Shown here: in pieces, positions 24,684-41,583 of the stretch | Position numbering within the stretch: position 1 is the first letter of the stretch | Layout of the letters: each line of letters opens with the position of its first letter | Assembly (NCBI GenBank): GCA_001295775.1 | Contig: LJIA01000020.1 | Location: 1 to 64,000 of the forward strand | Length of the DNA: 64,000 nt | Direction of reading: 5' to 3' | Source: a beta proteobacterium AAP99 | GTDB taxonomy: Bacteria > Pseudomonadota > Gammaproteobacteria > Burkholderiales > Burkholderiaceae_C | The notes under the pieces: model-generated | What the model saw: the letters and a program-made list of their open reading frames with translations, nothing else | Database searches by the model: none | What the model was told of the DNA's origin: nothing | Translations under genes and position numbers: made by a program

Positions 24684-24772
24684 TTATCGAGCCTGCGCCG
24701 CTGCCGCGCTGCCCAGCGCGATATGCGCGCAAACGCTTGCAGCGCCGGCCTGCGGCCCCGCACAATCCGCCC

Positions 24773-25378
24773 ATGCCCGCTCCGCCGCCTGCACCTCCGT
24801 CCGCCGCTTCGACACCGCAACCCGCCGACCTCGAAGCCCTGCGCCCCGCCCTGCTCAAGTACGCGCGCCTGCAGCTGCGCGACGAGGCCACCGCCGAGGA
24901 CTGCGTCTCCGACACCCTGCTGGCCGTACTCGAAAAGCCCCAGGCCTTTGCAGGCCGCAGCCAGCTGCGTACCTATGTCACGGGCATCCTGAAGCACAAG
25001 ATCATCGATGTGCTGCGCGCCGGGCAGCGATGGGTGCAGATCAGCCGCGAGGACGACGAGAGCGAATCCGACATGCTCGACGCCCTGTTCGACAGCACCG
25101 GCCACTGGCGCGAAAAGCCCACGGACTGGGGAAACCCCGAGGGCGACTACGAGCGCGGCGCCTTCTTCGCCGCACTGGAAGCCTGTGTGGAAAAGCTGCC
25201 CAGTACGCAGGGCCGCCTGTTCATGATGCGCGAGTGGATGGAGCTGGAGACCGAGGAGATCTGTAAGGCCTTGCAGGTGACGCCGACGAATGCATGGGTC
25301 CTGCTGCATCGAGCGCGCGCACGTCTGCGCGAATGTCTCGAAATCAACTGGTTCGGGCAGGCGGCCAAGAACAACTGA
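24773..25378 (+). CDS. ECF-type RNA polymerase sigma factor
   Basis: About 201 residues from the ATG at 24773 (the frame is open further upstream, but that part runs into the argB promoter). After a Pro/Ala-rich lead come region 2 (about 20-85; YARLQLRDEATAEDCVSDTLLAVLEKP, ILKHKIIDVLRA) and region 4 (about 135-190; LPSTQGRLFMMREWMELETEEICKALQV, VLLHRARARLRECL). An acidic loop (REDDESESDMLD) separates them. The gene is followed after one base by a zinc-finger anti-sigma gene, so the pair forms a sigma/anti-sigma unit. Target promoters were not identified; the metal cluster downstream has its own CueR-type control. Confidence 0.9.
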   Translation: MPAPPPAPPSAASTPQPADLEALRPALLKYARLQLRDEATAEDCVSDTLLAVLEKPQAFAGRSQLRTYVTGILKHKIIDVLRAGQRWVQISREDDESESDMLDALFDSTGHWREKPTDWGNPEGDYERGAFFAALEACVEKLPSTQGRLFMMREWMELETEEICKALQVTPTNAWVLLHRARARLRECLEINWFGQAAKNN

Positions 25379-25379
25379 A

Positions 25380-25571
25380 ATGAAAACGTGCAGAGAAGTC
25401 TTCGTCATGGTCCTGCAGTCGCAGGACCGAAACCTCAGCCTCCTCGAGAGGCTGAGCCTGCGCCTGCACCTGCTCGCCTGTGATGCATGTTCCATCTTTG
25501 TGCGTCAGAACAAGGTGCTCAGCGTTCGCATGAAGGCCTGGCGCGCCTACCGGGACGAATCGGAAGCCTGA
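25380..25571 (+). CDS. Short zinc-finger (ZAS) anti-sigma factor
   Basis: A 63-residue protein whose ATG follows the sigma-factor stop by one base. Cys4, His30, Cys34 and Cys37 form the H-x3-C-x2-C zinc motif of anti-sigma factors (LHLLACDAC). It has no membrane segment, so it should be a soluble inhibitor that binds the adjacent sigma factor in the cytoplasm and responds to oxidation or metals, by analogy with RsrA/ChrR-type ZAS proteins. It is shorter than most anti-sigma factors, being essentially only the ZAS domain. Confidence 0.85.
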   Translation: MKTCREVFVMVLQSQDRNLSLLERLSLRLHLLACDACSIFVRQNKVLSVRMKAWRAYRDESEA

Positions 25572-25608
25572 ACGGCACGGCGAGTCCGGGTTTCCCCGGC
25601 CGTGCCGT
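25572..25608 (+). terminator. Hairpin after the sigma/anti-sigma operon
   Basis: A perfect 10-base-pair stem (ACGGCACGGC / GCCGTGCCGT) around a 17-base loop begins at the base after the anti-sigma stop codon. There is no T-run after it, so it may terminate weakly or protect the 3' end. Confidence 0.6.
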
Positions 25609-25626: not shown

Positions 25627-25657
25627 TTGAGCTTCCCACGATGGCAATGTCCATAGT
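25627..25657 (+). promoter_or_regulatory. CueR-type operator/promoter of the MerPT-like operon
   Basis: TTGAGC (-35, 25627-25632), a 19-base spacer and CATAGT (-10, 25652-25657). The long spacer contains a dyad AGCTTCCCA/TGGCAATGT centred between the hexamers, as in MerR-family promoters and close to CueR sites. Expected transcription start is about 25664. Confidence 0.65.
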
Positions 25658-25663
25658 GGCGTC

Positions 25664-26356
25664 ATGAGATCCACGTTCGCACTGTCAATGATCCGCGCAG
25701 CACGCCTGTGTGCGTGCGCGCTGCTTGCCTTGCCGGCGCTGGCCAGCGCCGGCCCACTCACCGGCTTCAAGGACTCCTGGATGGTCATGGGCGAGGCCAG
25801 TGAACTCAACCAGGACTGGATGATCAACCGCGCCTTGACCGGCAAGGATGCACTCGGCGTGGGCTATCACCGCTGGAAGATGGACGACAGCCGCCACCGG
25901 GTGGAGCACACCGGCGTGAATTACGTGCGTCGCGTCGCCCGCTGGAACCGCCCGGACTCCCAGGCCAATCTGTGGTTTGCGCTGGACGTCGGCACCACCC
26001 GCGAGATCCATCCCAGCGGCCACCGCATGGCAGATCGCACAGGCTGGATGCCGATGGTGCAATTCGATTGGGAAACCACACGGCTGTACACCCTGGTGTC
26101 CGCTGCAACTTTGCGCGGCAAGGGCGGTCTGCAGTACGACACCTACAAGGCGCAGGCCGGGTTTTCGTTCTACGAAGTCAATTTCGATGAATGGCAGCCC
26201 TGGCTGGTGGTCGAAGCCAAGCGGATGCCGCGCTTTGACGACAAGGTGGAAGTCACCCCCTTCCTGCGCTTCATCCACAAGAGTTTGTATGTCGAAGTAG
26301 GCGCCAACACGGAGGGCAAGCCCCGCGTGGCGGTGATGAAGGTTTTTGCGTTCTAA
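25664..26356 (+). CDS. Exported protein of copper cluster, probable outer-membrane barrel
   Basis: A 230-residue protein of unrecognised family. It has a signal peptide ending ALPALASAG; the mature part is rich in alternating aromatic/hydrophobic strands and ends VAVMKVFAF, with the C-terminal Phe typical of outer-membrane beta-barrels. It contains several His/Met (for example GYHRWKMDD, HPSGHRMADRTGW, AKRMPRF). A CueR-type operator ends seven bases before this ATG, so transcription would start at or near it; the ATG at 25688 (MIRAARLCAC) gives a neater signal peptide and may be the true start. It is followed by MerP-like and MerT-like genes, implying a role in copper or another soft metal at the cell envelope. 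Confidence 0.7.
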   Translation: MRSTFALSMIRAARLCACALLALPALASAGPLTGFKDSWMVMGEASELNQDWMINRALTGKDALGVGYHRWKMDDSRHRVEHTGVNYVRRVARWNRPDSQANLWFALDVGTTREIHPSGHRMADRTGWMPMVQFDWETTRLYTLVSAATLRGKGGLQYDTYKAQAGFSFYEVNFDEWQPWLVVEAKRMPRFDDKVEVTPFLRFIHKSLYVEVGANTEGKPRVAVMKVFAF

Positions 26357-26365
26357 GTCTGTTGT

Positions 26366-26372
26366 GAAGGAG
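26366..26372 (+). promoter_or_regulatory. Strong ribosome binding site of the MerP-like gene
   Basis: GAAGGAG six bases before the ATG at 26379. It decides the start over an in-frame codon at 26346, which lies inside the upstream gene. Confidence 0.75.
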
Positions 26373-26378
26373 TCTGAA

Positions 26379-26711
26379 ATGAAGAAGCTCGTCATCGCCG
26401 CCGCCCTGGCTGCATCCGCTCTGGCCGCTCAGGCCGCTGAAGGCGTGCAGACCATCCGAGCCGAAGTCAACGGCATGGTCTGCGCTTTCTGCGCGCAGGG
26501 CATCGAGATGAAGATGACCAATCAGGCTGCCACGCAGGCCGTGTTCGTCGACCTGAAGAACAAGGTCGTGGCGGTGCAGCTCAAGCCTGGCCAGACCATG
26601 GCGCTGGACAAGTTCAAGGCCGACATCAAGGACGCCGGCTATGACGTGGTCAAGGCCGAGTACGTGCCGCAGACCGTGGCGGCCATCAAGGCGCAGTACG
26701 TCAAGAAGTAA
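26379..26711 (+). CDS. Periplasmic MerP-like metal-binding protein (HMA domain)
   Basis: A 110-residue protein with a clear signal peptide (about 1-19, ALAAQAAEG cleavage region) and one heavy-metal-associated domain. The metal site is VNGMVCAFCAQGIE with Cys35 and Cys38; the sequence CAFC (not CAAC/CASC) and the downstream helix resemble MerP-like proteins of non-mercury clusters. The C-terminal end is Lys/Gln-rich. It is followed after 26 bases by a MerT-like membrane protein, mirroring merT-merP organisation but in reverse order. With the CueR-type operator upstream of the operon, copper or silver is the likely metal. Confidence 0.85.
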   Translation: MKKLVIAAALAASALAAQAAEGVQTIRAEVNGMVCAFCAQGIEMKMTNQAATQAVFVDLKNKVVAVQLKPGQTMALDKFKADIKDAGYDVVKAEYVPQTVAAIKAQYVKK

Positions 26712-26737
26712 ATCCTCCTGCCCACGCCGGACTCCGC

Positions 26738-27121
26738 ATGACGCCCACCACCAATGCGTCCCGTACGGCCAGCCTGCTGTCGCTGTTCACCAGCGGCGGC
26801 ACGCTGATCTGCTGCGCCCTGCCCGCGCTGCTGGTGGCGCTCGGTGCGGGCGCGGCGCTGGCTGGGCTGGTGTCGGCCGTGCCGGCGCTCGTGTGGTTCT
26901 CGGAGCGCTCCGCCTGGGTGTTTGCCGCGGCGGGCGTGATGCTCGCTTTGGCGGGCTGGCTGCAATGGCGCGCCCGCTTCGAGCCCTGCCCCACCGACCC
27001 CGCCCTGGCCGCCACCTGCATGCGAACCCGGCGCATCTCGGCCTGGGTGTACGGCGTGTCGGTGGCGATCTATCTGGTGGGCGCGTTCTTCGCCTTCGTG
27101 GCGCCGGTGCTGTTCTTCTAG
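26738..27121 (+). CDS. MerT-like heavy-metal transport membrane protein
   Basis: A 127-residue inner-membrane protein with three hydrophobic helices (about 22-47, 58-76 and 103-125). The first helix carries the vicinal pair Cys25-Cys26 (TLICCALPALLVALGAG), as in MerT, and a loop between helices 2 and 3 has Cys84 and Cys94 (CPTDPALAATC), matching the second cysteine pair of MerT. No mercuric reductase is nearby, and the operon sits under a CueR-type operator, so it may move copper with its periplasmic partner. The direction of transport is not known. Confidence 0.82.
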   Translation: MTPTTNASRTASLLSLFTSGGTLICCALPALLVALGAGAALAGLVSAVPALVWFSERSAWVFAAAGVMLALAGWLQWRARFEPCPTDPALAATCMRTRRISAWVYGVSVAIYLVGAFFAFVAPVLFF

Positions 27122-27398: not shown

Positions 27399-27602
27399 TC
27401 AGGCCGCCTGCAACTCCGGCGTGAAGCCTGCGGTCTTGAGTGCATTCAGGACTTGATCCGCACCCAGACGGCTTTGCACACTGACCTGATGGCTGGGCAA
27501 ATCGATCTGGATCTGTGCCTGGGTGTCTGCGCTGTGCAGGGCACGGGTGATGGCGGCGGCGCAACCACCGCAGGTCATGTCGGGAACGTGCAGGCGAATC
27601 AT
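27399..27602 (-). CDS. copZ: Copper chaperone CopZ-like (HMA domain)
   Basis: A 67-residue cytoplasmic HMA protein from the ATG at 27602. The site HVPDMTCGGCAAAITRAL has Cys11 and Cys14; the rest follows the beta-alpha-beta pattern of CopZ/Atx1, ending ALKTAGFTPEL. The frame opens earlier, at 27647, but that codon lies upstream of the transcription start predicted from the CueR-type operator at 27638-27660, so the shorter protein is preferred. It is divergent from copA and probably hands Cu(I) to CopA and CueR. Confidence 0.88.
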   Translation of the reverse strand: MIRLHVPDMTCGGCAAAITRALHSADTQAQIQIDLPSHQVSVQSRLGADQVLNALKTAGFTPELQAA

Positions 27603-27637
27603 CTGGGCGCTTTCTTGAGAGACTCCATTCAGCGTGC

Positions 27638-27660
27638 AGCTTGCCACGGGGCAGGGTCAA
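27638..27660 (-). promoter_or_regulatory. CueR-type operator of copZ
   Basis: Read on the minus strand: TTGACC (-35, 27660-27655) followed by a dyad ACCCTGCCC/TGGCAAGCT within a long spacer. The -10 is weak (about ACGCTG at a 19-base spacing), as expected for an activator-dependent MerR-family promoter. Confidence 0.65.
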
Positions 27661-27724: not shown

Positions 27725-27755
27725 TTGACCCTCACATCATGGGAAGCTTGAATCT
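27725..27755 (+). promoter_or_regulatory. CueR-type operator of copA
   Basis: TTGACC (-35, 27725-27730) followed by the dyad ACCCTCACA/TGGGAAGCT (27728-27748) and a weak -10 (GAATCT, 27750-27755) at a 19-base spacing. It lies 51 bases before the copA ATG. It resembles the CueR box of E. coli copA (TTGACC, then a TTCCC/GGAAGG dyad). Confidence 0.75.
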
Positions 27756-27805: not shown

Positions 27806-30217
27806 ATGCAGACCCTGACCCTCCCCATCTCCGGCATGACCTGCGCCTCCTGCGTGGCGCGGGTGGAGCGTGCACTGGCCACTGTGCCCGGTGTACTGCA
27901 GGCCACCGTGAACCTGGCCACGGAATCTGCCCGGCTGGACGTCGAGCCGCCCAAGAGCAGCCCGCTGGCCGACGCCGCCACGGCCGCGGTGCAGGCCATC
28001 GAGCGCACGGGCTTTGCCGTGCCCCGGCTGGGTGTGGACCTGCAGATCAGCGGCATGACCTGCGCCGCCTGCGCCGGCCGGGTGGAGCGCGCGCTGGTTC
28101 AAGCGCCCGGCGTGCTGAGTGCCACAGTCAATTTGGCCGACGAGCGGGCCCACGTGCAGCTGCTGGCCGGCACCGCGACTGCCGCCCTCACCCAGGCGCT
28201 GGAGCGCGCCGGCTACCACGGCACGCCGCTGCAGGACGACGCGCAGCGCGCCCAGGCCGAGGCGCTCGCGCAGGCGCAGGCGCGCAAGGACCGCATCGCC
28301 GTCTGGGGTAGCGCCCTGCTCACCCTGCCGCTCGCGCTGCCGATGATCGGCCTGCTCTGGGGCCAGCACTGGATGCTCCCCGGCTGGCTGCAACTGCTGC
28401 TGGCCACGCCGGTGCAGTTCGTCTTTGGTGCGCGCTTCTATCGCGCAGGCTGGCACGCGGCGCGTGCCGGCAGCGGCAACATGGATCTGCTGGTGGCGCT
28501 GGGCACGAGCGCGGCATTCGGGCTGTCGCTGTTCAACCTCTGGGCCGATCCGCATCATCTGTACTTCGAAAGCGCCGCGGTCGTGATCACCCTTGTTCTA
28601 CTGGGCAAGTGGCTGGAGGCACGCGCCAAGCGCAAGACCACGGCGGCCATACGCGCGCTGCAGGCGCTGGCGCCGGACACCGCCACCGTGATGATTGACG
28701 GTCAGCCCCGCAGCCTGCCCACAGCACAGCTCAAGGTCGGCGATCTGCTGCTCGTGGCCCCCGGCGAGGCCGTGGCCGCAGATGCCGTGATCGTCGAAGG
28801 CACAAGCCAGCTCAATGAGTCCATGCTCACGGGCGAAAGCCTGCCGGTGGCGCGCGCGCTGGGCGACGCCATCGTCGGCGGCAGCGTGAACGGCGAGGGG
28901 CGGCTGGTCGCGCGCATCAGCGCCGTGGGCCGCGAAAGCCTGCTCGCGCGCATCGTGCATCAGGTGGAGCAGGCGCAGACGCGCAAGGCGCCGGTGCAGC
29001 GCCTGGTGGACCAGGTGGCCGCCGTGTTCGTGCCGGTGGTGCTGGCGATCGCGCTGGGCACGCTGCTCGGCTGGGGCCTGAGCACGGGGCAGTGGAGCAC
29101 GGCGCTGATCAATGCCGTGGCGGTGCTGGTGATCGCCTGCCCCTGCGCACTGGGCCTGGCCACGCCCGCCGCGCTGATGGCGGGTACCGGTGTGGCGGCA
29201 CGGCACGGCATTCTGATCAAGGACGCCGAGGCGCTGGAGCGGGCGCACCGCCTCAAGGTGGTGGCCTTCGACAAGACCGGCACGCTCACGATCGGCCAGC
29301 CGCGCGTGGTCGACGTGGCCGCCGCGGAAGGCGCAAGCGACGCCGAACTCCTGAGCAAGGCTGCGGCCCTGTCCGCCGGCAGCGCGCACCCGCTGGCCCA
29401 TGCGCTGATCGCGCACGCATCCGCGCTCGGCGATGCAATGCCGTTGATTGCGCACGACATTCAGGCCCTTGCGGGTTATGGCCTGCAAGGCCGGATCGGC
29501 ACGCAGATCTATGCGCTGGGCAGCGGCCGCTACATGGCGCAGCTGGGCGTGGCGACCACGGCGCTCTCGCGCGCGGAAGCCACGGCACTGGCGCAGGGGC
29601 ACTCGGTCTCGTGGCTCGCGGAATTGCCGGCACCCGGCGGCAGTGAGAGGCCTCATCTCATCGGCATGATCGGCTTTGGCGACACGCCGCGCCCGCAGAG
29701 CGCCGCGGCTGTTGCCGCGCTCAAGCGCCTGAACATCCGCCCGGTGCTGCTCTCCGGCGACCACGCCAGCGCCGCACGCCACATCGGCGAGCTGCTCGGC
29801 ATCGAAGACATCCACGCTCAGGTGCTGCCCAGCGACAAGGCCGCGCACGTGGAGAAGCTCAAGCACTTCGGCCCCGTGGCCATGGTGGGCGACGGGATCA
29901 ATGACGCGCCGGCGCTGGCCGCCGCGGACGTCGGCGTGGCCATGGGCAGCGGCTCGGACGTGGCCATGAACACCGCGGCCATCACGCTCATGGCCAATGA
30001 CCCGGCGCGCGTGGCCGATGCCATCGACATCTCGCGCGCCACCGTGCGCAAGATCCGCCAGAACCTGTTCTGGGCCTTTGGCTACAACGCCATCGGCATC
30101 CCGCTGGCCGCGCTCGGCCTGCTGTCGCCGGTGCTGGCCGGCGCGGCCATGGCGCTGTCGTCGATCAGCGTCATCAGCAATGCCCTGCTTCTGAATCGTT
30201 GGAGTCCGAAACGATGA
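27806..30217 (+). CDS. copA: Cu(I)-exporting P1B-type ATPase CopA
   Basis: An 803-residue inner-membrane pump that expels Cu(I) from the cytoplasm. Two N-terminal HMA domains have metal sites Cys13/Cys16 (GMTCASC) and Cys86/Cys89 (GMTCAAC). Eight membrane helices follow, with the actuator motif LTGESLPV, the intramembrane Cys445-Pro-Cys447 ([11 protein letters not shown]), phosphorylated Asp489 in FDKTGTLT, the SAHPLAHAL histidine of P1B pumps and the [16 protein letters not shown] hinge. The C-terminal [15 protein letters not shown] region carries the Met/Ser residues of Cu(I) pumps. It overlaps cueR by four bases, so pump and regulator are co-transcribed from the CueR-type promoter at 27725. 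Confidence 0.98.
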
Positions 30218-30657
30218 ATGCTTCCGTTCCCGCAGCTATCACCATCGGCCAGGCTGCCGCCGAGTCCGGCGTATCGGCCAAGATGATCCGCCATTACGAG
30301 TCGCTCGGCTTGCTGGGCGGCATCGCGCGCACCGACGGTGGCTACCGCACCTATGGCGCCAGCGAGCTGCATACCCTGCGCTTCATCCGCCGCTCGCGGG
30401 ACCTGGGCTTTTCCATCGAGGAGATCCGCCAGCTGCTCTCGCTCTGGCAGGACAAGCAGCGCGCCAGCCGCGAGGTGCGTCAGGTCGCCATGAAGCACGT
30501 GGAGGAATTGGAGCAGCGCATCGCCCAGCTTCAGGCGATGCGGGAGACGCTGGTGACGCTGATGCACGGCTGCTCGGGCGATGATCGACCCAGCTGCCCG
30601 ATCCTGAACGATCTCGCGGGCGAGTCCTGCGCAAGCCGTGAACACCACTGCCACTGA
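30214..30657 (+). CDS. cueR: Copper-responsive MerR-family activator CueR
   Basis: A 147-residue MerR-family regulator starting inside the copA stop (ATGA). The winged helix ([26 protein letters not shown]) is followed by a dimerisation coiled coil and the metal loop Cys120-x7-Cys128 (CSGDDRPSC), with the same spacing as Cys112/Cys120 of E. coli CueR, which binds Cu(I), Ag(I) or Au(I). The C-terminal ASREHHCH adds Cys/His, as in many CueR proteins. It should twist the 19-base-spaced promoters at 25627, 27638-27660 and 27725 to activate them. Placing the regulator last in the copA operon gives positive feedback. Confidence 0.95.
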
Positions 30658-30667
30658 TCCATCCGCC

Positions 30668-31675
30668 ATGAGCACGCACCAGCACGACATCGCGAACTTC
30701 CAGCACAGCCACGTCTTCGATGCCGGCAACCCCACGGGTGAACGCCGCACTCTGGCGGTGCTGCTGATCACACTGATTACGATGGTGGTGGAGATCATCA
30801 CTGGATGGCTCACGGGCTCCATGGCCCTGCTGGCCGACGGCTGGCACATGGGGACGCATGCGGCCGCCATGGGCGTGGCCCTGGGTGCCTACGTGCTGGC
30901 GCGTCGCTGGGCGCGTGACCCGCGTTTTTCCTTTGGCACCTGGAAGATCGAGGTGCTGGCTGCGTTCGGCAGCAGTGTGGCACTGGGGCTGGTTGGCATA
31001 GCGATCGCGGCAGAGTCGATCGCACGGCTGTATCGCCCCACCACGATCGACACCGGCACGGCCTTCTGGGTGGCCCTCGTGGGTCTGGTGGTGAATCTGG
31101 TGTGTGCCTGGCTGCTGCACGGCGCTGAGGGAGGCCATGCGCACCACGGGCACGGGCACGGGCACGATGATGTCGACCACCACCACGACCGCAGGCACGG
31201 TCATGATCGCGCGCACGACCACGGCGCCGCACGCGACCTGAACCTGCGCGCGGTGTACGTGCATGTGCTGGCCGATGCACTGACCTCCGTTCTCGCGCTC
31301 CTGGCACTTGCGGGTGCAGCCACGCTGGGCTGGGTCTGGCTGGACCCCGCCGTGGGCTTGGTGGGCGCTGCGATGATCGCCGTCTGGGCCGTCAACCTCG
31401 GTCGTGCATCCGCGCACACCCTGCTGGATGCCGAGCCTAATCCGAAGCTACGCGAACAGATCGAGCAGGCCCTGCGGGCTGACGGCGATACGCAGATTGC
31501 GGAGCTGCACCTTTGGCGGGTGGGCCGCGACAACTGGGCGGTCATTGCCTCTGTAGTGGCCGGTCAGCCCGCCGATGCGGCCGTGTATCGCGACCGGCTC
31601 GCTCACATCGCGGAACTGGCGCATGTGAACGTGGAAGTGCAGGTCTGCCCCAGCTGCAGGGCCAGCCACCCATAG
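30668..31675 (+). CDS. dmeF: CDF-family metal exporter, DmeF-like
   Basis: About 335 residues from the ATG at 30668 (a GTG at 30638, inside cueR, is possible but less likely). The N-terminus HQHDIANFQHSHVFD and the large His-rich cytoplasmic loop (about 160-195; repeated HGH/HHH) are typical of the DmeF group of cation diffusion facilitators, which export Co(II)/Ni(II) and other divalent ions using proton exchange. Six membrane helices are present, with transport sites in LLADGWHMGTHA (helix 2) and HVLADALTSV (helix 5). It ends in a cytoplasmic domain with CPSC. It follows cueR by 10 bases and may share the copper operon transcript. Confidence 0.9.
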   Translation: MSTHQHDIANFQHSHVFDAGNPTGERRTLAVLLITLITMVVEIITGWLTGSMALLADGWHMGTHAAAMGVALGAYVLARRWARDPRFSFGTWKIEVLAAFGSSVALGLVGIAIAAESIARLYRPTTIDTGTAFWVALVGLVVNLVCAWLLHGAEGGHAHHGHGHGHDDVDHHHDRRHGHDRAHDHGAARDLNLRAVYVHVLADALTSVLALLALAGAATLGWVWLDPAVGLVGAAMIAVWAVNLGRASAHTLLDAEPNPKLREQIEQALRADGDTQIAELHLWRVGRDNWAVIASVVAGQPADAAVYRDRLAHIAELAHVNVEVQVCPSCRASHP

Positions 31676-31877
31676 AGCGCGGCGACAAAAGCTCAATGGA
31701 ATCGCCAGGATCAGGTAGCGCCGCGCGGCACACGGCCACGGCGTACCCGACTTGCGGGATGGCTTCACACCACGCCGCGCGCCCGCGCGAAAGAGGCCTG
31801 CATACACTCGATCGCGTCTGGTCTGTACAGAGTGCAAGCCCCTCCAGCATTGCGCCGCGGACCCACGGGATCATGCC

Positions 31878-34430
31878 ATGTCTACGCCGTTTGCCGTGCT
31901 TCAGGCCCCGCCGGGACTGAGCAAACACGCGCTGCTGTTTCACCGGATCGAGCACCACGAAGCGCTCAATCAGGCGCATGCCAGCACCTTGCAGTGCCTG
32001 AGCCTGGATGCAGGCATCGACCCGCATCGGATGCTTGGGAAGCGATTCAGTGTTCGCATCCGCCACAACCTGCACGACGAGACCGTGCGCTTCATTGACG
32101 GCATCGCTGCGCAAGCGCGCGTGCTGGATCAAGTCGGCCGCTACACACGCTACGAGATCGAACTGCGCCCCTGGCTGTGGTTTCTCTCACTGACCACGGA
32201 CTGCCGGATCTTCCAGGACCAGACCGTGCCGGAGATTCTGCAAACCGTGTTTGCAGACCATGCGGTCTCGCGTTTTGAAGTCAAGCTGACCCACAGCTAC
32301 GTAAAGCGCCCCTACACGGTGCAGTACCGCCAGAGCGATCTGGACTTCGTGAACTGGCTCTGCGAGCTGGAAGGCATCACGCTGCATTGGCGCCATGACG
32401 CGCAGGGCCACACGCTGATCCTGACCGACAGCATCGCCAAGCACACGGACTGCGTAGGCTACGAAGCAGTGCCTTTCAACGCCCAAGTGGGTCGTCGGCG
32501 CGATGACGAGCAATCGATGCTGGATTGGCAGCCCACACGCAGCGTGGCCAGCCAGCAGGCCGTGCTGACGGACTACAGCTTCCTGTCTCCCAAGGCGCCG
32601 CGCAGTGAAAGCCGCACCCAGCCTGGCAACCTGCCTCAGGCTCTGGGTGCCTCCGTGGGCGAGGTTTTCACGGCCGGCCAGTTCCACAAGGAAAGCCGCG
32701 ACGAGAGCGAGAGTGCGCATCAGGCCGAGGTGCTGCTGGACAGCCTGGCGGCCCCCACGCAGCGCTACACCGGGCGCAGCACTGCGCGCGGCCTGTACGC
32801 CGGCGCCACCTTCACGCTGCAGCGTCACACCCGTCCGGCGCACAACCAGAGCTATCTGATCGTGGCGCACCGTCTTACGGCGGTGTTCGCCAACTACGAG
32901 GGGCTGGACCCCACGCTGCTTGCGCAACTGATTTCGCGTGATCTTCCCGCGCTTCAAGGGCAGCTGACCGGCGGTACGGGTGCGACGCAATCGGCCGCAC
33001 AAGGTGCTTACTTCGCCTGCGAGATTGATGCACAGCCCGCCAGCCTCGCGTTCCGCCCCGCGCGCACCACGCAACGTCCCGTGGTGCCCAGCACGCACAC
33101 GGCCACTGTCGTTGACAGTGGTGCCGGGGAGATTCACACCGACCTGCACGGCCGCATCAAGGTGCATTTCCACTGGGATCGATATGGTCAGCGCTCCGGT
33201 TCGGACAGCTGCTGGCTGCGCGTGGCCCAGCCCTGGGGCGGCGCCGGCTGGGGCGCGCAGTTCCTGCCCCGCGTGGGCCAGGAGGTGTCGGTGGCCTTCA
33301 TCGAGGGCGACGTTGAAGCACCCGTGGTCACCGGCCGCCTATACAACGGTCTTAACCGCCCTGCCGCGTTCAGCCACACCGGCAGCCTGCCGGGTAACCA
33401 GGCGCTGGCTGGCTTCAAGAGCAAGGAACTGAACGGCGGTGGCTACAACCAGCTGCTGTTCGATGACACGCCCGAGCAACTGCGCACCCAGGCCGCCAGT
33501 ACACACGCAGCCACACAGCTGAACCTGGGCTACGAGATTGCGCCGCGCTCGGACAGTGCCGAAGAAGCTGGCGCAGTTGCGCAATCGTCCGCCAGCCCGC
33601 GCGGCGAAGGCTTCGAGGTGCGCTCAGACGCCTGGGGCGCCGTGCGTGCCGCCAAAGGCTTGCTGCTCAGCACCGACCCGCAGGGCGCTGGCGGCGGCGG
33701 GCACATTGATCGCGAGGCCTTGGTCAGTGCGCTCGAACAGGCCCTCACCCTCGCCAAGAGCCTCTCCAAGAGCGCGAGCACCGCGGGTGCGGCCACCGGC
33801 AAGGACGAACAGAGCGTCGATGAGAAGACCGGCCAAGGCCCAGACCAGACCGCGCAGGAGGCGCAGTTCACGCAGATCAAGGGCTTGGGCACGGGGGCCA
33901 ACAATGAGCAAGAAGGCAAGGATCCCACGCGCAACCATCTGAGCGCCTTCAGCCCGGCCGGCGTGGCGGTGGCCACACCGAAGATGCTCGGCCTCGCCGC
34001 AGGCAGCCACATCGATGCCGCGGCCGGCAAGCACGTGCAGCTCGCCAGCGGCCAGCAAACCCACCTGCATGCAGCCAGCGGCATCCGCAGCTTCGCCCAG
34101 GCCGGCGGCCTGCACAGCATCGCCAATCAGGGCAAGGTGCTGATCCAAAGCCAGCACGCCGACACGGAGATCAGCGCAGAGCAATCCATCCACGCCACGG
34201 CCACGAGCAAACACATCCTGATGGAAGCCCAGCAGCATGTGACGCTGGTGGAAAGCGGTGGCGCCTATCTGAAGATCGAGGGCGGCAAGGTGGAGATCGG
34301 CTGCCCGGGGACCTTCACCGTGAAAGCAGCCAGCTTTGCGTTGAAGGGGGCGGCGTCGTATCAGCCTAAGTTCCCGGAGTTCAAAGAGACGGAGCTCAAG
34401 CTGAAGCGGCGTTTCAAGGTGTCCAGTTGA
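31878..34430 (+). CDS. vgrG: Type VI secretion tip protein VgrG
   Basis: About 850 residues from the ATG at 31878. The first part is the gp27-like domain (FHRIEHHEALNQAHASTLQC, PYTVQYRQSDLDFVNWLCEL, HWRHD), then the gp5-like OB fold (DLHGRIKVHFHWDRYG, SCWLRVAQPWGG, RVGQEVSVAFIEGD) and, after about 520, a DUF2345 region with the repetitive needle pattern (AGSHIDAAAGKHVQLASGQQ). A low-complexity Ala/Lys/Glu segment (about 585-650) is inserted before DUF2345. It forms the spike of a T6SS, but no other T6SS structural genes are in the window, so this is an orphan vgrG that delivers the effector encoded next. Confidence 0.95.
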   Translation: MSTPFAVLQAPPGLSKHALLFHRIEHHEALNQAHASTLQCLSLDAGIDPHRMLGKRFSVRIRHNLHDETVRFIDGIAAQARVLDQVGRYTRYEIELRPWLWFLSLTTDCRIFQDQTVPEILQTVFADHAVSRFEVKLTHSYVKRPYTVQYRQSDLDFVNWLCELEGITLHWRHDAQGHTLILTDSIAKHTDCVGYEAVPFNAQVGRRRDDEQSMLDWQPTRSVASQQAVLTDYSFLSPKAPRSESRTQPGNLPQALGASVGEVFTAGQFHKESRDESESAHQAEVLLDSLAAPTQRYTGRSTARGLYAGATFTLQRHTRPAHNQSYLIVAHRLTAVFANYEGLDPTLLAQLISRDLPALQGQLTGGTGATQSAAQGAYFACEIDAQPASLAFRPARTTQRPVVPSTHTATVVDSGAGEIHTDLHGRIKVHFHWDRYGQRSGSDSCWLRVAQPWGGAGWGAQFLPRVGQEVSVAFIEGDVEAPVVTGRLYNGLNRPAAFSHTGSLPGNQALAGFKSKELNGGGYNQLLFDDTPEQLRTQAASTHAATQLNLGYEIAPRSDSAEEAGAVAQSSASPRGEGFEVRSDAWGAVRAAKGLLLSTDPQGAGGGGHIDREALVSALEQALTLAKSLSKSASTAGAATGKDEQSVDEKTGQGPDQTAQEAQFTQIKGLGTGANNEQEGKDPTRNHLSAFSPAGVAVATPKMLGLAAGSHIDAAAGKHVQLASGQQTHLHAASGIRSFAQAGGLHSIANQGKVLIQSQHADTEISAEQSIHATATSKHILMEAQQHVTLVESGGAYLKIEGGKVEIGCPGTFTVKAASFALKGAASYQPKFPEFKETELKLKRRFKVSS

Positions 34431-34652: not shown

Positions 34653-37094
34653 ATGATCATCAGCCCCCCGTTTCTGGCCGACCGCGGCGAAGAAGACACT
34701 GACGAACAGTGGATCGCCAAGTGCATGAAGGGCGATGCGCCCGGGCATGGCACCTTCCCGGTCAGCTTCAACATGTGCTGGCACGGCGGCCTGCATCTGG
34801 AGGCGCCCACCTTGGCTGCGGGTGGACGCGCGCCGGTGCGTGCGATTGCCGACGGGGACGTGGTCTATCACCGCGATGCCACCCCAGAAAGCACGGATGT
34901 CACCCACGCGCAGAACTACTCAGACACGGCCGGTGTGGCTAAGTGGACCGACAACGGCGTCGTGGTGATCAAGCACACCACCGACATCGGAACGGGGGAG
35001 CACGCCACGAACATCGTCTACTACTCGATCTACATGCACCTCTCGGGTCAGATCAAAGCCGCCGCCCATAAGGGCCAACGGATCTATCGCAAAGACGAGA
35101 TCGGGACAGCTGGCAAGGTGTACGGCGACGCCCATCGCATCCATTTCGAGATCATTTGCGACGACGCCAACCTGCGCAAACTGATTGGACGGCCCGGCAC
35201 CCAAGCCGAAGTCGCCACCACTGCGCACGGCAGAAGCGATGCGGTGTTCGGGGAGATCTATTTCCAGCTACCCAGCGGCGCGCACTTCTACGCGACCAAG
35301 CCCGCAGACAACGTCACTGCCCCGCCTTCAGCCACGAATCCGCCGGTTCACACGGTGGATGCGGACAACAGCTTCTATGTGGGCATGCGCTACCGGGCGG
35401 GTGATGGGCCGGCGGCTGAGCGGGGTGCGGTGTATTTCTATGCCTACACGCAGCGCCGCTCAACCGAAACCGGAGAGGAGTCGGAGGAAGCGCAATTCTT
35501 GCCACTCACGGTTGCAGGGACGAAAGCGACGGTCACGCGACGAGTCACAACAGATCGCAACGGCCGGAAGGTCACCGAAGATCGTACGTTTGAGAACTAC
35601 GAGTACGAGCACTACCTGACGGCGACCAACCTCAGTGCAGCTCAACCTGCGACGGGCCGCCCTGCGCCCAGCGCGGTTTACGAGATGCTGCGCTTTGGCC
35701 GGGTGATTGACACCGCCAACGAGACCGCCGTCCCCCACACCGTGCCCAATTGGCAGAAGGTCGCCTACAGCGCGACCGAAGAAGGCTGGGTGAACCTGAA
35801 CGCCACTGACATCAGAATCTTCAGTGATGCCGACTTCCCGCATTGGGCCGGCTGGACGGTGCTCAACGACGATGGACACGCAGTAGACAGCCGCTCCGAA
35901 GCGTCCAAGATCAAAGCGTGGGTCACTGACCCAGCCGACGCCAATAAAGACCGCATTGTGAACCCCGCAGAACTTGAATCCCGCTTGAACGCCAGTTGGG
36001 TCAAGAAGCGCCTGGAGAAGACGATCGCCAAGTTCCCCACTGATTGGGTGGACACAGAGGCGGACATCAACGCCCAGTGGGGCTGGCTCAAAATCGCCGA
36101 CGAAGCCAAGCTGGTGATGATTGAGCCGATGAAAGAGGACCCCGACTACAAGGACTTCAAGGCTCACGTGAAGGCGCTGGGTTGGTGGGGTGCTGCGGCA
36201 ATATCTGGGCTAGAGAAAAACCACTGGCATTTGCAGCCGAGGGCATTTATTGCCGTATTCATCAAGTCTGGGTGGCTGAGCATTAATGAACTCACACAGT
36301 GCCTTCCCCGGCGCAATCTTCACTTGCGCGGAACCACTTGGGAAAACCAAACTATTGCAGAATGGGGCGCCGCCCGCACACGACTTTCTCGTTGGACACC
36401 ACATCTGAACCTGTCAATGCGAAAGTATTGCATTTCGAGTAGCAAGCAGCGCATTGCACACTTTCTCGCACAGGTAATCGAGGAGAGTGGATACTTGCAA
36501 TACGTTAAAGAAGGCAGCGGGGAAACCGCTTCCTACGCCCCTTGGTACGGACGAGGTTTGATTCAACTAACGCACTTAGCGAACTACAAAAAATACGGGG
36601 CATATCGAGGGTTCCCCGCAAGCTCCGTTCCTGTAGAGTTTACTGAACTCGGCTGGAACCCCAACACTCAGCTTGCAACGGACAACTCAACATACAATGC
36701 GCACAACTGTGCAGACAGCGCCTGTTTCTACTGGACCTGCCCTGAAATAACCGCTACGGGCAAAAATGTACTTGAACCCTCCGATGAGGGGATTACAAAT
36801 GCAAAGATAATTGCTTGCAGCAGATCCACAAATGGAAATGTTCCCGTTCAAAATATAAATGGACTAGGAACTCGCATGCAAGCGTTTGTTTATATGAAAT
36901 ATTTGTTGCTCAACTTGATCAGACCCGGAGCCAGCGAATCACTCACTTTCGACTGGCGTCGAAACTCAAATAAAGAGTTGCTTTCAAATGCGGATGGCAG
37001 TCCAGCACTGGATAGGAATGGCAGGCAGAAAAAGGGCTACATAGCAACGACGCACACGATCGATGTACCACTTGACTATCAGAGACCGAGGTGA
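34653..37094 (+). CDS. Two-domain peptidoglycan hydrolase T6SS effector (M23-like + GH19-like)
   Basis: An 813-residue protein directly downstream of vgrG, with no signal peptide, as expected for T6SS cargo. Residues about 30-200 resemble an M23/LytM endopeptidase: CWHGGLHLEAP (His44, His48), YYSIYMHLSG (His129) and HRIHFEI (His164), with PVRAIADGDVVY between. The usual metal-binding Asp is replaced by His48, and the HxH pair reads R-I-H, so the ligand set is unusual. Residues about 560-770 resemble a GH19 chitinase/lysozyme domain: IAHFLAQVIEESGYLQYVKE (catalytic Glu region) and YGRGLIQLTHLANYKKYG. The middle (about 210-520) is unassigned. From about 36,200 the DNA turns AT-rich, so the GH19 part looks recently acquired. 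It likely attacks both peptide and glycan bonds in prey walls. Confidence 0.85.
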   Translation: MIISPPFLADRGEEDTDEQWIAKCMKGDAPGHGTFPVSFNMCWHGGLHLEAPTLAAGGRAPVRAIADGDVVYHRDATPESTDVTHAQNYSDTAGVAKWTDNGVVVIKHTTDIGTGEHATNIVYYSIYMHLSGQIKAAAHKGQRIYRKDEIGTAGKVYGDAHRIHFEIICDDANLRKLIGRPGTQAEVATTAHGRSDAVFGEIYFQLPSGAHFYATKPADNVTAPPSATNPPVHTVDADNSFYVGMRYRAGDGPAAERGAVYFYAYTQRRSTETGEESEEAQFLPLTVAGTKATVTRRVTTDRNGRKVTEDRTFENYEYEHYLTATNLSAAQPATGRPAPSAVYEMLRFGRVIDTANETAVPHTVPNWQKVAYSATEEGWVNLNATDIRIFSDADFPHWAGWTVLNDDGHAVDSRSEASKIKAWVTDPADANKDRIVNPAELESRLNASWVKKRLEKTIAKFPTDWVDTEADINAQWGWLKIADEAKLVMIEPMKEDPDYKDFKAHVKALGWWGAAAISGLEKNHWHLQPRAFIAVFIKSGWLSINELTQCLPRRNLHLRGTTWENQTIAEWGAARTRLSRWTPHLNLSMRKYCISSSKQRIAHFLAQVIEESGYLQYVKEGSGETASYAPWYGRGLIQLTHLANYKKYGAYRGFPASSVPVEFTELGWNPNTQLATDNSTYNAHNCADSACFYWTCPEITATGKNVLEPSDEGITNAKIIACSRSTNGNVPVQNINGLGTRMQAFVYMKYLLLNLIRPGASESLTFDWRRNSNKELLSNADGSPALDRNGRQKKGYIATTHTIDVPLDYQRPR

Positions 37095-37097
37095 AGC

Positions 37098-37580
37098 ATG
37101 TTTGCGGCAAGACTCTTTCTCCTAACCACCCTCGCGACTATTAGCGCTGCCTCCGGAGCGCAAAACTGCTTTTCTGTTCGCGATCAAAGCGCAATCATTG
37201 AAGCGAGTTATGAGGACACCGAATTCAAGGAAATCGCTTGCGGGGATGAGTCCGCCTGCGACAAAGATCAACTCAGAGAGCGCATAGAAACCAACAGTAT
37301 TTTCATAGACAAAGACAAAAAACATCTCCTATGCGTTGCAAAGCCAACCCGAAAGCCTAAAAACTACCCGATGATTGTTTTTGTGTCCACGCAAGAATCA
37401 ATCGCCTACCAATTTAGTTTTTTTGGATCAGATATAAATATCTTGCGGCAATCCACCAAAGGCAAGAGGAATTTGCGCACCAAAGAAACAGGTAGTGGCG
37501 GCTCACCCGAGTCGGTTACTATTTACATCTGGGATGGCCAGAGATATACAGAACGAAACGTAAACCGCCCAACAAGATAA
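37098..37580 (+). CDS. Exported protein, candidate periplasmic immunity protein 1
   Basis: A 160-residue protein of unrecognised family that starts 3 bases after the effector stop, so it is translationally linked. A signal peptide (MFAARLFLLTTLATISAASG) is followed by a mature part with Cys at QNCFSV, IACGDESACDK and LLCVAKP, suggesting two periplasmic disulphides. It has AT-rich codon use, unlike the surrounding genome. A peptidoglycan-degrading effector requires a periplasmic immunity protein, and this is the best-placed candidate; the role is inferred from position only. Confidence 0.65.
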   Translation: MFAARLFLLTTLATISAASGAQNCFSVRDQSAIIEASYEDTEFKEIACGDESACDKDQLRERIETNSIFIDKDKKHLLCVAKPTRKPKNYPMIVFVSTQESIAYQFSFFGSDINILRQSTKGKRNLRTKETGSGGSPESVTIYIWDGQRYTERNVNRPTR

Positions 37581-39966: not shown

Positions 39967-41583
39967 CTAAGGCTCCACCGCGTCCGCCAGTTGCTCCTTG
40001 CCGCCGCCACAGGCTGACACGGCCTCGCCCTGCTGCTTGCGGTGCTCGATCTTGGGCCCGTGCATGGTGATCCAGCCGTCGTCGGTGGCTACGCCATCGC
40101 TGCCGGTGCGGAGTCTTCTAGACGGATCGAAGGCAAAGTCCAGGTTCTTCTTGGACTGCGGACCCCAGTAGCCCACGCGCCCGAGGTCATAGAAGGTGCG
40201 CGCAAAGCCCGCCTTGGCAAAGGCCTTGAGGCAGCCGAGCAGGTACTTGCGCCGCCCGCCGGAGCCGCGCCAGGGGTAGTCCAGCAGCGCCTTGCGGAAG
40301 TAGAAGCGGCGGTAATTGTTCATCACGCGGTCCAGCAGCTCGGCGCGGTCCAGCGCGTCGGGCTTCATGATGGGCGTGACGAAGTTGTACTTCTCGAAGT
40401 CGAAGACCTCGACCTTGTCGCCCAGCTCGCGGAACAGATCAGAGAACGGCCAGGGCGTGTACATGGCCCAGTTGGCCATGTCCGGGTTCCAGTCGCGCGC
40501 CATCTGGTAGGTCTCTTCCAGGGTCTCGGCGGTTTCGTTTTCCAGGCCGACGATGAACTGCGCCTCGGACACGATGCCGTTCTGACGCAAGAGCTCGATG
40601 GCGCGCTTGTTCTGAGCGACGGTGGTTTCCTTGTTGAAGCGGTCCAGCTTCAACTGCGCCGCGGCCTCTGTACCCAGGGACACATGGATCAAGCCGGCCT
40701 TGCGATACAACGGCAGCAGGTTCTCGTCGCGCAGGATGTCCGTGACGCGCGTATTGATGCCCCATTGGACCGGCAGATTTCGTTCGATCAGCTCCTCGCA
40801 AAAGGCAATGAACTTCTTGCGGTGGATGGTCGGCTCTTCGTCGGCCAGGATGAAGAAGCCGACTTGGTGCTCGCGCACCAGGGTCTCGATCTCTTCCACA
40901 ACCTTCTTGGGGTCGCGGATGCGATAGTCGCGCCAGAACTTCCACTGGCTGCAGAAGCTGCACGTGAACGGGCAGCCGCGCGCAAAGTTGGGGATGGCCA
41001 CACGCACCCCGAGCGGGATATAGGTGTACTGGGACCATTCCAGGATGCCCCAGTCCGGCGTGATGCGGTCCAGATCCTCGATCGGCGGCTCGGCCTCATT
41101 GGCATGTACCTTGCCGTCTTCAATGAACGCGATGCCGCGCAGCGTGCGCCGCTCCGTCAGGAAGCGCCCCTCGTCCACCGCCCGCACCAGATTGAGAAAG
41201 ACCTGCTCGCCCTCGCCGCGGACCACCGCATCAATCCAGGGCGCTTCGCTCAGCACCTGCGGATACATGAAGGTGCCGTGGATGCCGCCCAGCACCGTGA
41301 CGATGGCTGGGTTCACCTCCTTGGCAATCTGCAGCAGGCGTTCGGCCTTGTAGATGGCCGGCGTGATGGCGGTGGCGCCCACTACATCCGGTTCGATCTC
41401 GGCGATGCGTGCGCGCACCTGCTCGTCGTCCAGGTGATGCGTCATCGCATCCACAAAGACTACATCCGTATAGCCATTGGCCTTAAGCGTGCCCGTGAGA
41501 TAGGCCACCCAGGCCGGTGGCCAGTTGCCCGCGATCTCCGCACCGCCGGAGTGATAGTTGGGGTGGATCAGCAGAATGCGCAT
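39967..41583 (-). CDS. bchE: Anaerobic Mg-protoporphyrin IX monomethyl ester cyclase BchE
   Basis: A 538-residue radical SAM enzyme with an N-terminal cobalamin-binding domain (about 1-140, [32 protein letters not shown]) and a radical SAM domain with the iron-sulphur motif Cys204-x3-Cys208-x2-Cys211 ([16 protein letters not shown]). It forms the fifth ring of bacteriochlorophyll with oxygen from water, in low oxygen. The C-terminal part (YYFRKALLD-like, [16 protein letters not shown]) matches BchE. The ATG at 41583 has GGAG six bases upstream. Only bchJ is nearby; the rest of the photosynthesis cluster is not in the window. Confidence 0.92.

Follow-up and report, generated by a model that had tools for sequence, protein, structure and literature searches.

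Few copper importers of the outer or the inner membrane are known, and the entry of ionic copper into Gram-negative bacteria is largely an open question (PMC13038864). Among the described systems, CopB-CopC-CopD and PcoB-PcoC-PcoD consist of a 12-stranded barrel, a periplasmic copper carrier and an inner-membrane permease, and stand under copper control. PcoB has been proposed to take up copper, although it is encoded in a defence operon (PMC9210255). MerP-MerT combines a periplasmic HMA protein carrying a CxxC motif with a three-helix permease, whose TM1 bears a CC pair and whose TM2-TM3 loop bears another cysteine pair. The operons led by CutF, CruR or CopL possess DUF2946-like uORFs, small exported proteins with cysteines and a terminal Pro-Pro motif, encoded directly 5' of the following genes (PMC9426467, PMC9973294).

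The window, which is the whole 64-kb stretch of DNA analysed here, harbours a set of three genes (hereafter the trio) predicted to encode an outer-membrane barrel, a periplasmic HMA-domain carrier and a MerT-like inner-membrane protein. In this arrangement the trio is similar to CopB-CopC-CopD. However, its barrel is not CopB by sequence, the HMA protein replaces CopC, the MerT-like protein replaces CopD, and the operon of the window has no recognisable multicopper oxidase gene. The carrier and the permease share the features of MerP and MerT listed above, but they score below the cut-offs for both families, no MerA was recognised nearby, the regulator is CueR, and the trio nearly always adds an outer-membrane barrel. 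Most trios of relatives are preceded by a uORF like those of the CutF-, CruR- and CopL-led operons, whose accessible descriptions make no mention of a barrel-HMA-MerT-like cargo (PMC9426467, PMC9973294), whereas the copy in the window has a CueR-type promoter in place of the uORF. An earlier note on this DNA did not recognise such a trans-envelope copper route as a characterised one, and searches of the open-access literature turned up no paper on the trio. We lean slightly towards reading the trio as a copper-responsive trans-envelope route for Cu(I), probably inward, similar to CopB-CopC-CopD. What the computation shows is the components of the trio and how they are conserved together, a predicted barrel fold, the sequence of the operator and the copper-related surroundings.

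Organisation of the locus

The three open reading frames of the trio lie on the same strand (25664-27121, +), separated by gaps of 22 and 26 bp, as expected from the three-gene operon proposed earlier. The first gene (25664..26356) encodes the outer-membrane 12-stranded beta-barrel protein (OMP), which has 230 aa, a signal peptide, a mature part starting at about G30, and belongs to an unnamed family. The second gene (26379..26711) encodes the periplasmic HMA-domain metal carrier of 110 aa, with a signal peptide and the motif GMVCAFC, in agreement with the periplasmic CAFC protein of the earlier note. The third gene (26738..27121) encodes the MerT-like inner-membrane protein of 127 aa, with three helices, Cys25-Cys26 in TM1, and Cys84 and Cys94 in an Arg-rich TM2-TM3 loop.

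Downstream of the trio and convergent to it, the window encodes the cytoplasmic copper chaperone copZ (27399..27647, -), whose HMA domain is above the gathering score and whose best NCBIfam match, the CopZ model NF047957, is below its cut-off. It is followed by copA (27806..30217, +), encoding a P1B ATPase that exports Cu(I) (550 bits with TIGR01511, above its cut-off), and by cueR (30199..30657, +), encoding a Cu(I)-responsive activator of the MerR family (TIGR02044, 162.2 bits versus a cut-off of 147.4). The Co/Ni efflux gene dmeF (30638-31675, +; NF033827, over the cut-off) starts inside the end of cueR and is apparently co-transcribed with cueR and copA. This places copper and cobalt/nickel efflux in one apparent unit, an unexpected pairing.

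Directly 5' of the trio, and divergent from argB, are genes encoding an ECF sigma factor (TIGR02943/PRK12520 type) and a 63-aa zf-HC2 anti-sigma factor (24686-25571, +). This pair precedes the trio in this genus only. A perfect 10-bp inverted repeat (25572-25608), forming a terminator-like hairpin, was found right after the anti-sigma stop codon. Membership of the trio in the ECF sigma operon was rejected, since the hairpin and the separate promoter divide the pair from the trio and the pair is limited to this genus.

CueR-type promoter

The search for CueR-type promoters, with a model of the E. coli type comprising the CueR operator, the -35 element, the 19-bp spacer and the -10 element, covered both strands of the 64 kb. 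The top site was TTGAGCTTCCCACGATGGCAATGTCCATAGTG at 25627 (25627..25657, +), with -35 TTGAGC, a 19-bp spacer, -10 CATAGT and the dyad AGCTTCC-N7-GCAATGT. The second-best site, serving as internal positive control, was the CueR-type promoter of copA (27725..27755, +; TTGACC-19-GAATCT). The operator that the earlier note had read ahead of the trio is thus real as a sequence, and ranks first. The top site stands 37 bp 5' of the first gene of the trio, and the promoter shows the arrangement by which members of the CueR regulon are recognised, namely a predicted operator within a 19-bp-spaced promoter. In the nearest sister species the same CueR-type site is present, and is likewise the top site of its locus.

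The -10 element of this promoter ends 6 bp 5' of the ATG at 25664, and the spacing is about the same in the sister species. Transcription is expected to begin at this ATG, so the transcript may lack a leader, or translation may begin at M9 (25688) instead. The other trio loci, outside the genus, showed no CueR-type promoter apart from one uncertain site (L102). A CueR-type promoter as a general feature of the trio was rejected, being limited to the genus except for that site.

Outer-membrane barrel

The AlphaFold2 model of the first protein, built with 74 sequences from trio loci, contains 12 strands (pLDDT 94.9, pTM 0.87). It predicts with high confidence that the 230-aa protein, which has a signal peptide and a C-terminal Phe, is an outer-membrane barrel. 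The structure prediction for which the earlier note had called returned the barrel that it had suspected. Its view that the protein belongs to no known family also stands; the protein has no match at E<=1 in Pfam or NCBIfam, and none of the families in these collections covers the barrel or any of 73 relatives.

Comparison of the model with structures in the PDB matched other outer-membrane barrels, including autotransporter domains, KdgM, NanC, and also PcoB. The match with PcoB (7pge; Z 12.1, rmsd 4.4, 166 aligned) does not stand out from those with other 12-stranded barrels. The assignment of the barrel to CopB was rejected both by sequence (no PF05275 match among 74 members) and by profile, as the comparison with the CopB/PcoB profile (PF05275) gave a probability of 1.6 versus 1.1 for the reversed control, which is noise level.

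Conserved methionines were found in strand 1 (M11 and M13) and strand 12 (M196), at every second strand position, and R64, N73, D106, E108, R173 and E182 are also conserved at alternate strand positions (all in mature numbering). Residues conserved in this alternating manner probably line the inner face of the barrel. Since strands 1 and 12 are adjacent in a closed barrel, the model allows a possible inward cluster of methionines.

HMA carrier and MerT-like protein

The second protein scores 19 bits with the HMA domain (E 0.0018), below the cut-off. In NCBIfam it comes closest to models of CopZ and MerP without reaching the cut-off of any of them, and the score with MerP (TIGR02052), 27.8 bits versus a curated cut-off of 92.55, places it outside that family. 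The motif VC-x-FCA is invariant in 18 relatives. We know of no way to read metal selectivity from CxxC motifs.

The third protein is, by profile comparison, a remote homologue of MerT. Its full-length alignment with a true MerT from the same order reached an hhalign probability of 93.7 (E 2e-7), against 26 (E 7e-4) for the reversed control and <0.3 for shuffled controls. C25, C26, C84 and C94 are invariant in 58 MerT-like sequences and are in register with the cysteine pairs of MerT in the profile alignment. With the CC pair in TM1, these results bear out the MerT-like permease of the earlier note. The search with the Pfam MerT model (PF02411) gave no match over the gathering cut-off, nor any hit, for the protein in the window, and five of the 58 relatives matched the model weakly (best E 5e-4). 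Because of the score below the Pfam cut-off, the protein is called MerT-like and is not filed as MerT. The model of the protein shows three helices at moderate confidence (pTM 0.58); no structural match to solved proteins was reported for it, which at this pTM says little. The second cysteine pair, in the Arg-rich loop, is predicted on the cytoplasmic side by the positive-inside rule.

The remote homology to MerT and the weak score of the HMA protein with MerP would also fit a degenerate mer operon of which MerP/MerT-like parts are left, which would make the trio a mercury system. We regard this as very improbable. No mer-type gene, MerA included, was found among the scanned flanking ORFs, and the regulator passes the curated CueR cut-off and fails the MerR-Hg model, in line with the lack of MerA and of a mercury-type MerR stated in the earlier note. 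Moreover, a separate, true MerT is encoded elsewhere in the same genome, and the trios of relatives adjoin copper-control genes.

Conservation and distribution of the trio

The trio is a real unit. With the MerT-like protein as query, at least 80 loci were found in named genomes of alpha-, beta- and gammaproteobacteria, and the order OMP-HMA-MerT-like is kept in 78 of the 80 loci listed. Carriers among the matches listed include Polynucleobacter, Methylophilus, Methylotenera, Limnohabitans, Rhodoferax and Solimonas.

The search with the first protein detected the barrel in 31 of 399 Burkholderiales genomes, and in 10 of 61 close relatives, and the HMA and MerT-like genes adjoin the barrel gene in nearly all loci found in this way. 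The MerT-like protein is present in 38 of the 399 genomes, thirty of which also possess the barrel. Conversely, thirty out of the thirty-one genomes with the barrel also carry the MerT-like gene, and the lone exception is a weak barrel match. Over the 399 genomes the co-occurrence of barrel and MerT-like protein has a Fisher p of about 1e-36. The three genes show correlated sequence distances, with the highest correlation between barrel and HMA protein (r 0.84; permutation maximum 0.21). Across the phylum the trio is patchy, being present in 4 of 398 genomes, the present one included.

No match to the barrel was detected among 72,556 plasmids. Carriage of the full trio by plasmids was rejected; just partial MerT-like and HMA pieces are found on them, without the barrel. 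A Variovorax megaplasmid (NZ_LR594667.1, 3543-4219 of locus L154) possesses an HMA and MerT-like pair, both annotated as hypothetical, in which the first gene encodes a signal peptide and a CALC motif; an adjoining barrel gene was not found. A Xanthomonas copper-resistance plasmid (NZ_CP137533.1, 6058-6174 of locus L153) harbours an unannotated and apparently broken MerT-like remnant, placed between copL/copA and a CusA-type RND cluster.

Copper-related genes adjoining the trio

The earlier note had asked for a check of whether related genomes keep the trio next to copA and cueR. The trio is kept, but its linkage to copA and cueR is local to the genus and not general. Other genes related to copper control adjoin the trio elsewhere. 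A CutF-like uORF, namely a small exported protein with cysteines and a C-terminal Pro-Pro motif, is encoded directly 5' of the barrel gene in 48 of the 78 listed loci, whereas the same rule selects about 0.6% of other small ORFs. These uORFs match DUF2946 weakly. The description agrees with that of CutF-like copper-sensing uORFs (PMC9973294, PMC8456105), which are related to CruR (PMC9426467). CutF-like and DUF2946 uORFs have been shown to be copper sensors (PMC9426467, PMC9973294), and CutF-like proteins are mostly, though not always, copper-specific (PMC9973294). CusF, over its cut-off, is encoded directly 5' of the trio in five relatives, and a CsoR-type repressor adjoins the trio in six. 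The copy in the window has no CutF-like uORF, with a 92-bp gap after the anti-sigma gene.

Several copper controls, unrelated to one another, have been recruited by one and the same trio, and this is the strongest argument of the analysis for copper (or silver) as the substrate. It gives the trio a strong and independent link to copper, in line with the metals that the earlier note had proposed, and from this link we infer that copper itself would be the substrate.

Putative copper route and its direction

In the copper route that we slightly favour, copper would cross the outer membrane through the 12-stranded barrel and Cu(I) would be taken up by the CxxC motif of the periplasmic HMA protein. 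The MerT-like protein would relay Cu(I) from the Cys-Cys pair in TM1 to the cytoplasmic cysteine pair, and in this species CopZ and CopA would take over at the cytoplasmic side. In this genus, cytoplasmic Cu(I) would switch the trio on via CueR, and in most relatives control would be exerted by a nascent-chain copper sensor, the CutF-like uORF, or by a CsoR-type repressor. Transport and its inward direction we infer by analogy. The inner-membrane step would be inward as in MerP/MerT, and the outer-membrane step may run the same way despite induction of the operon by copper, as proposed for PcoB (PMC9210255).

Direction is the weak point of this proposal, owing to the induction logic of CueR and CsoR and to the trio genomes that lack a copper ATPase. 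Control by CueR and CsoR implies induction by copper excess, and export or sequestration would explain this no less well than import. In an outward route, the MerT-like and HMA proteins would collect Cu(I) and the barrel would release it to the medium, as a minimal tolerance system removing copper from the periplasm, and perhaps also the cytoplasm, of copper-stressed cells. Besides the induction by CueR and the CsoR-type neighbours, such a system would explain the presence of CusF, a copper-efflux chaperone, in the operon of some relatives, and would be useful in genomes without a copper ATPase. We nevertheless consider the outward route rather unlikely, as MerT works as an importer, none of the three parts has an apparent source of energy, and an open barrel does not drive efflux against a gradient.

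Three complete genomes of 1.3 Mb possess the trio, the cytochrome oxidase gene COX1 and heavy-metal RND pumps, but no P-type ATPase, so that copper brought into the cytoplasm would lack its usual exit there. The retention of the trio in such genomes is also what would be expected if it acquired copper for cytochrome oxidase or other cuproenzymes when the metal is scarce, the regulators then serving to limit its uptake and not to respond to stress. Many of the listed matches come from freshwater genomes, where free copper is probably often scarce, and CruR-type uORFs shut down a copper importer when the metal is in excess (PMC9426467). However, in the logic of CueR and CsoR copper induces and does not repress, and the gaps between uORF and OMP are mostly <115 bp, nearer to the CutF arrangement, in which copper turns expression on, than to the 162 bp of CruR. 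A role in supplying cuproenzymes under scarcity is therefore quite improbable in our view.

Returning to the inward route, a broader reading, advanced tentatively and with some doubt, is that the trio represents a widespread and undescribed copper importer across the whole Gram-negative envelope, in which an outer-membrane copper channel family absent from Pfam and NCBIfam would pass Cu(I) to a MerP-like carrier and then to a MerT-like permease repurposed for copper. Streamlined bacteria would retain this importer even where a copper ATPase is missing. If true, the solution of MerP/MerT would be used beyond mercury, and the barrel family would gain its first functional lead. With one protein per envelope compartment and several lineage-specific copper controls, this three-gene set makes the question of copper entry directly testable.

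Other genes in the window

Directly 3' of the copper cluster, the window encodes a VgrG-type tip protein of type VI secretion (31752-34430, +; 892 aa). Two ORFs that follow it (34653-37094 and 37098-37580, both +) had no NCBIfam match and could be VgrG cargo. The anaerobic cyclase BchE (39967-41583, -) was detected over its curated cut-off, which makes the organism a probable bacteriochlorophyll producer within the Burkholderiales.
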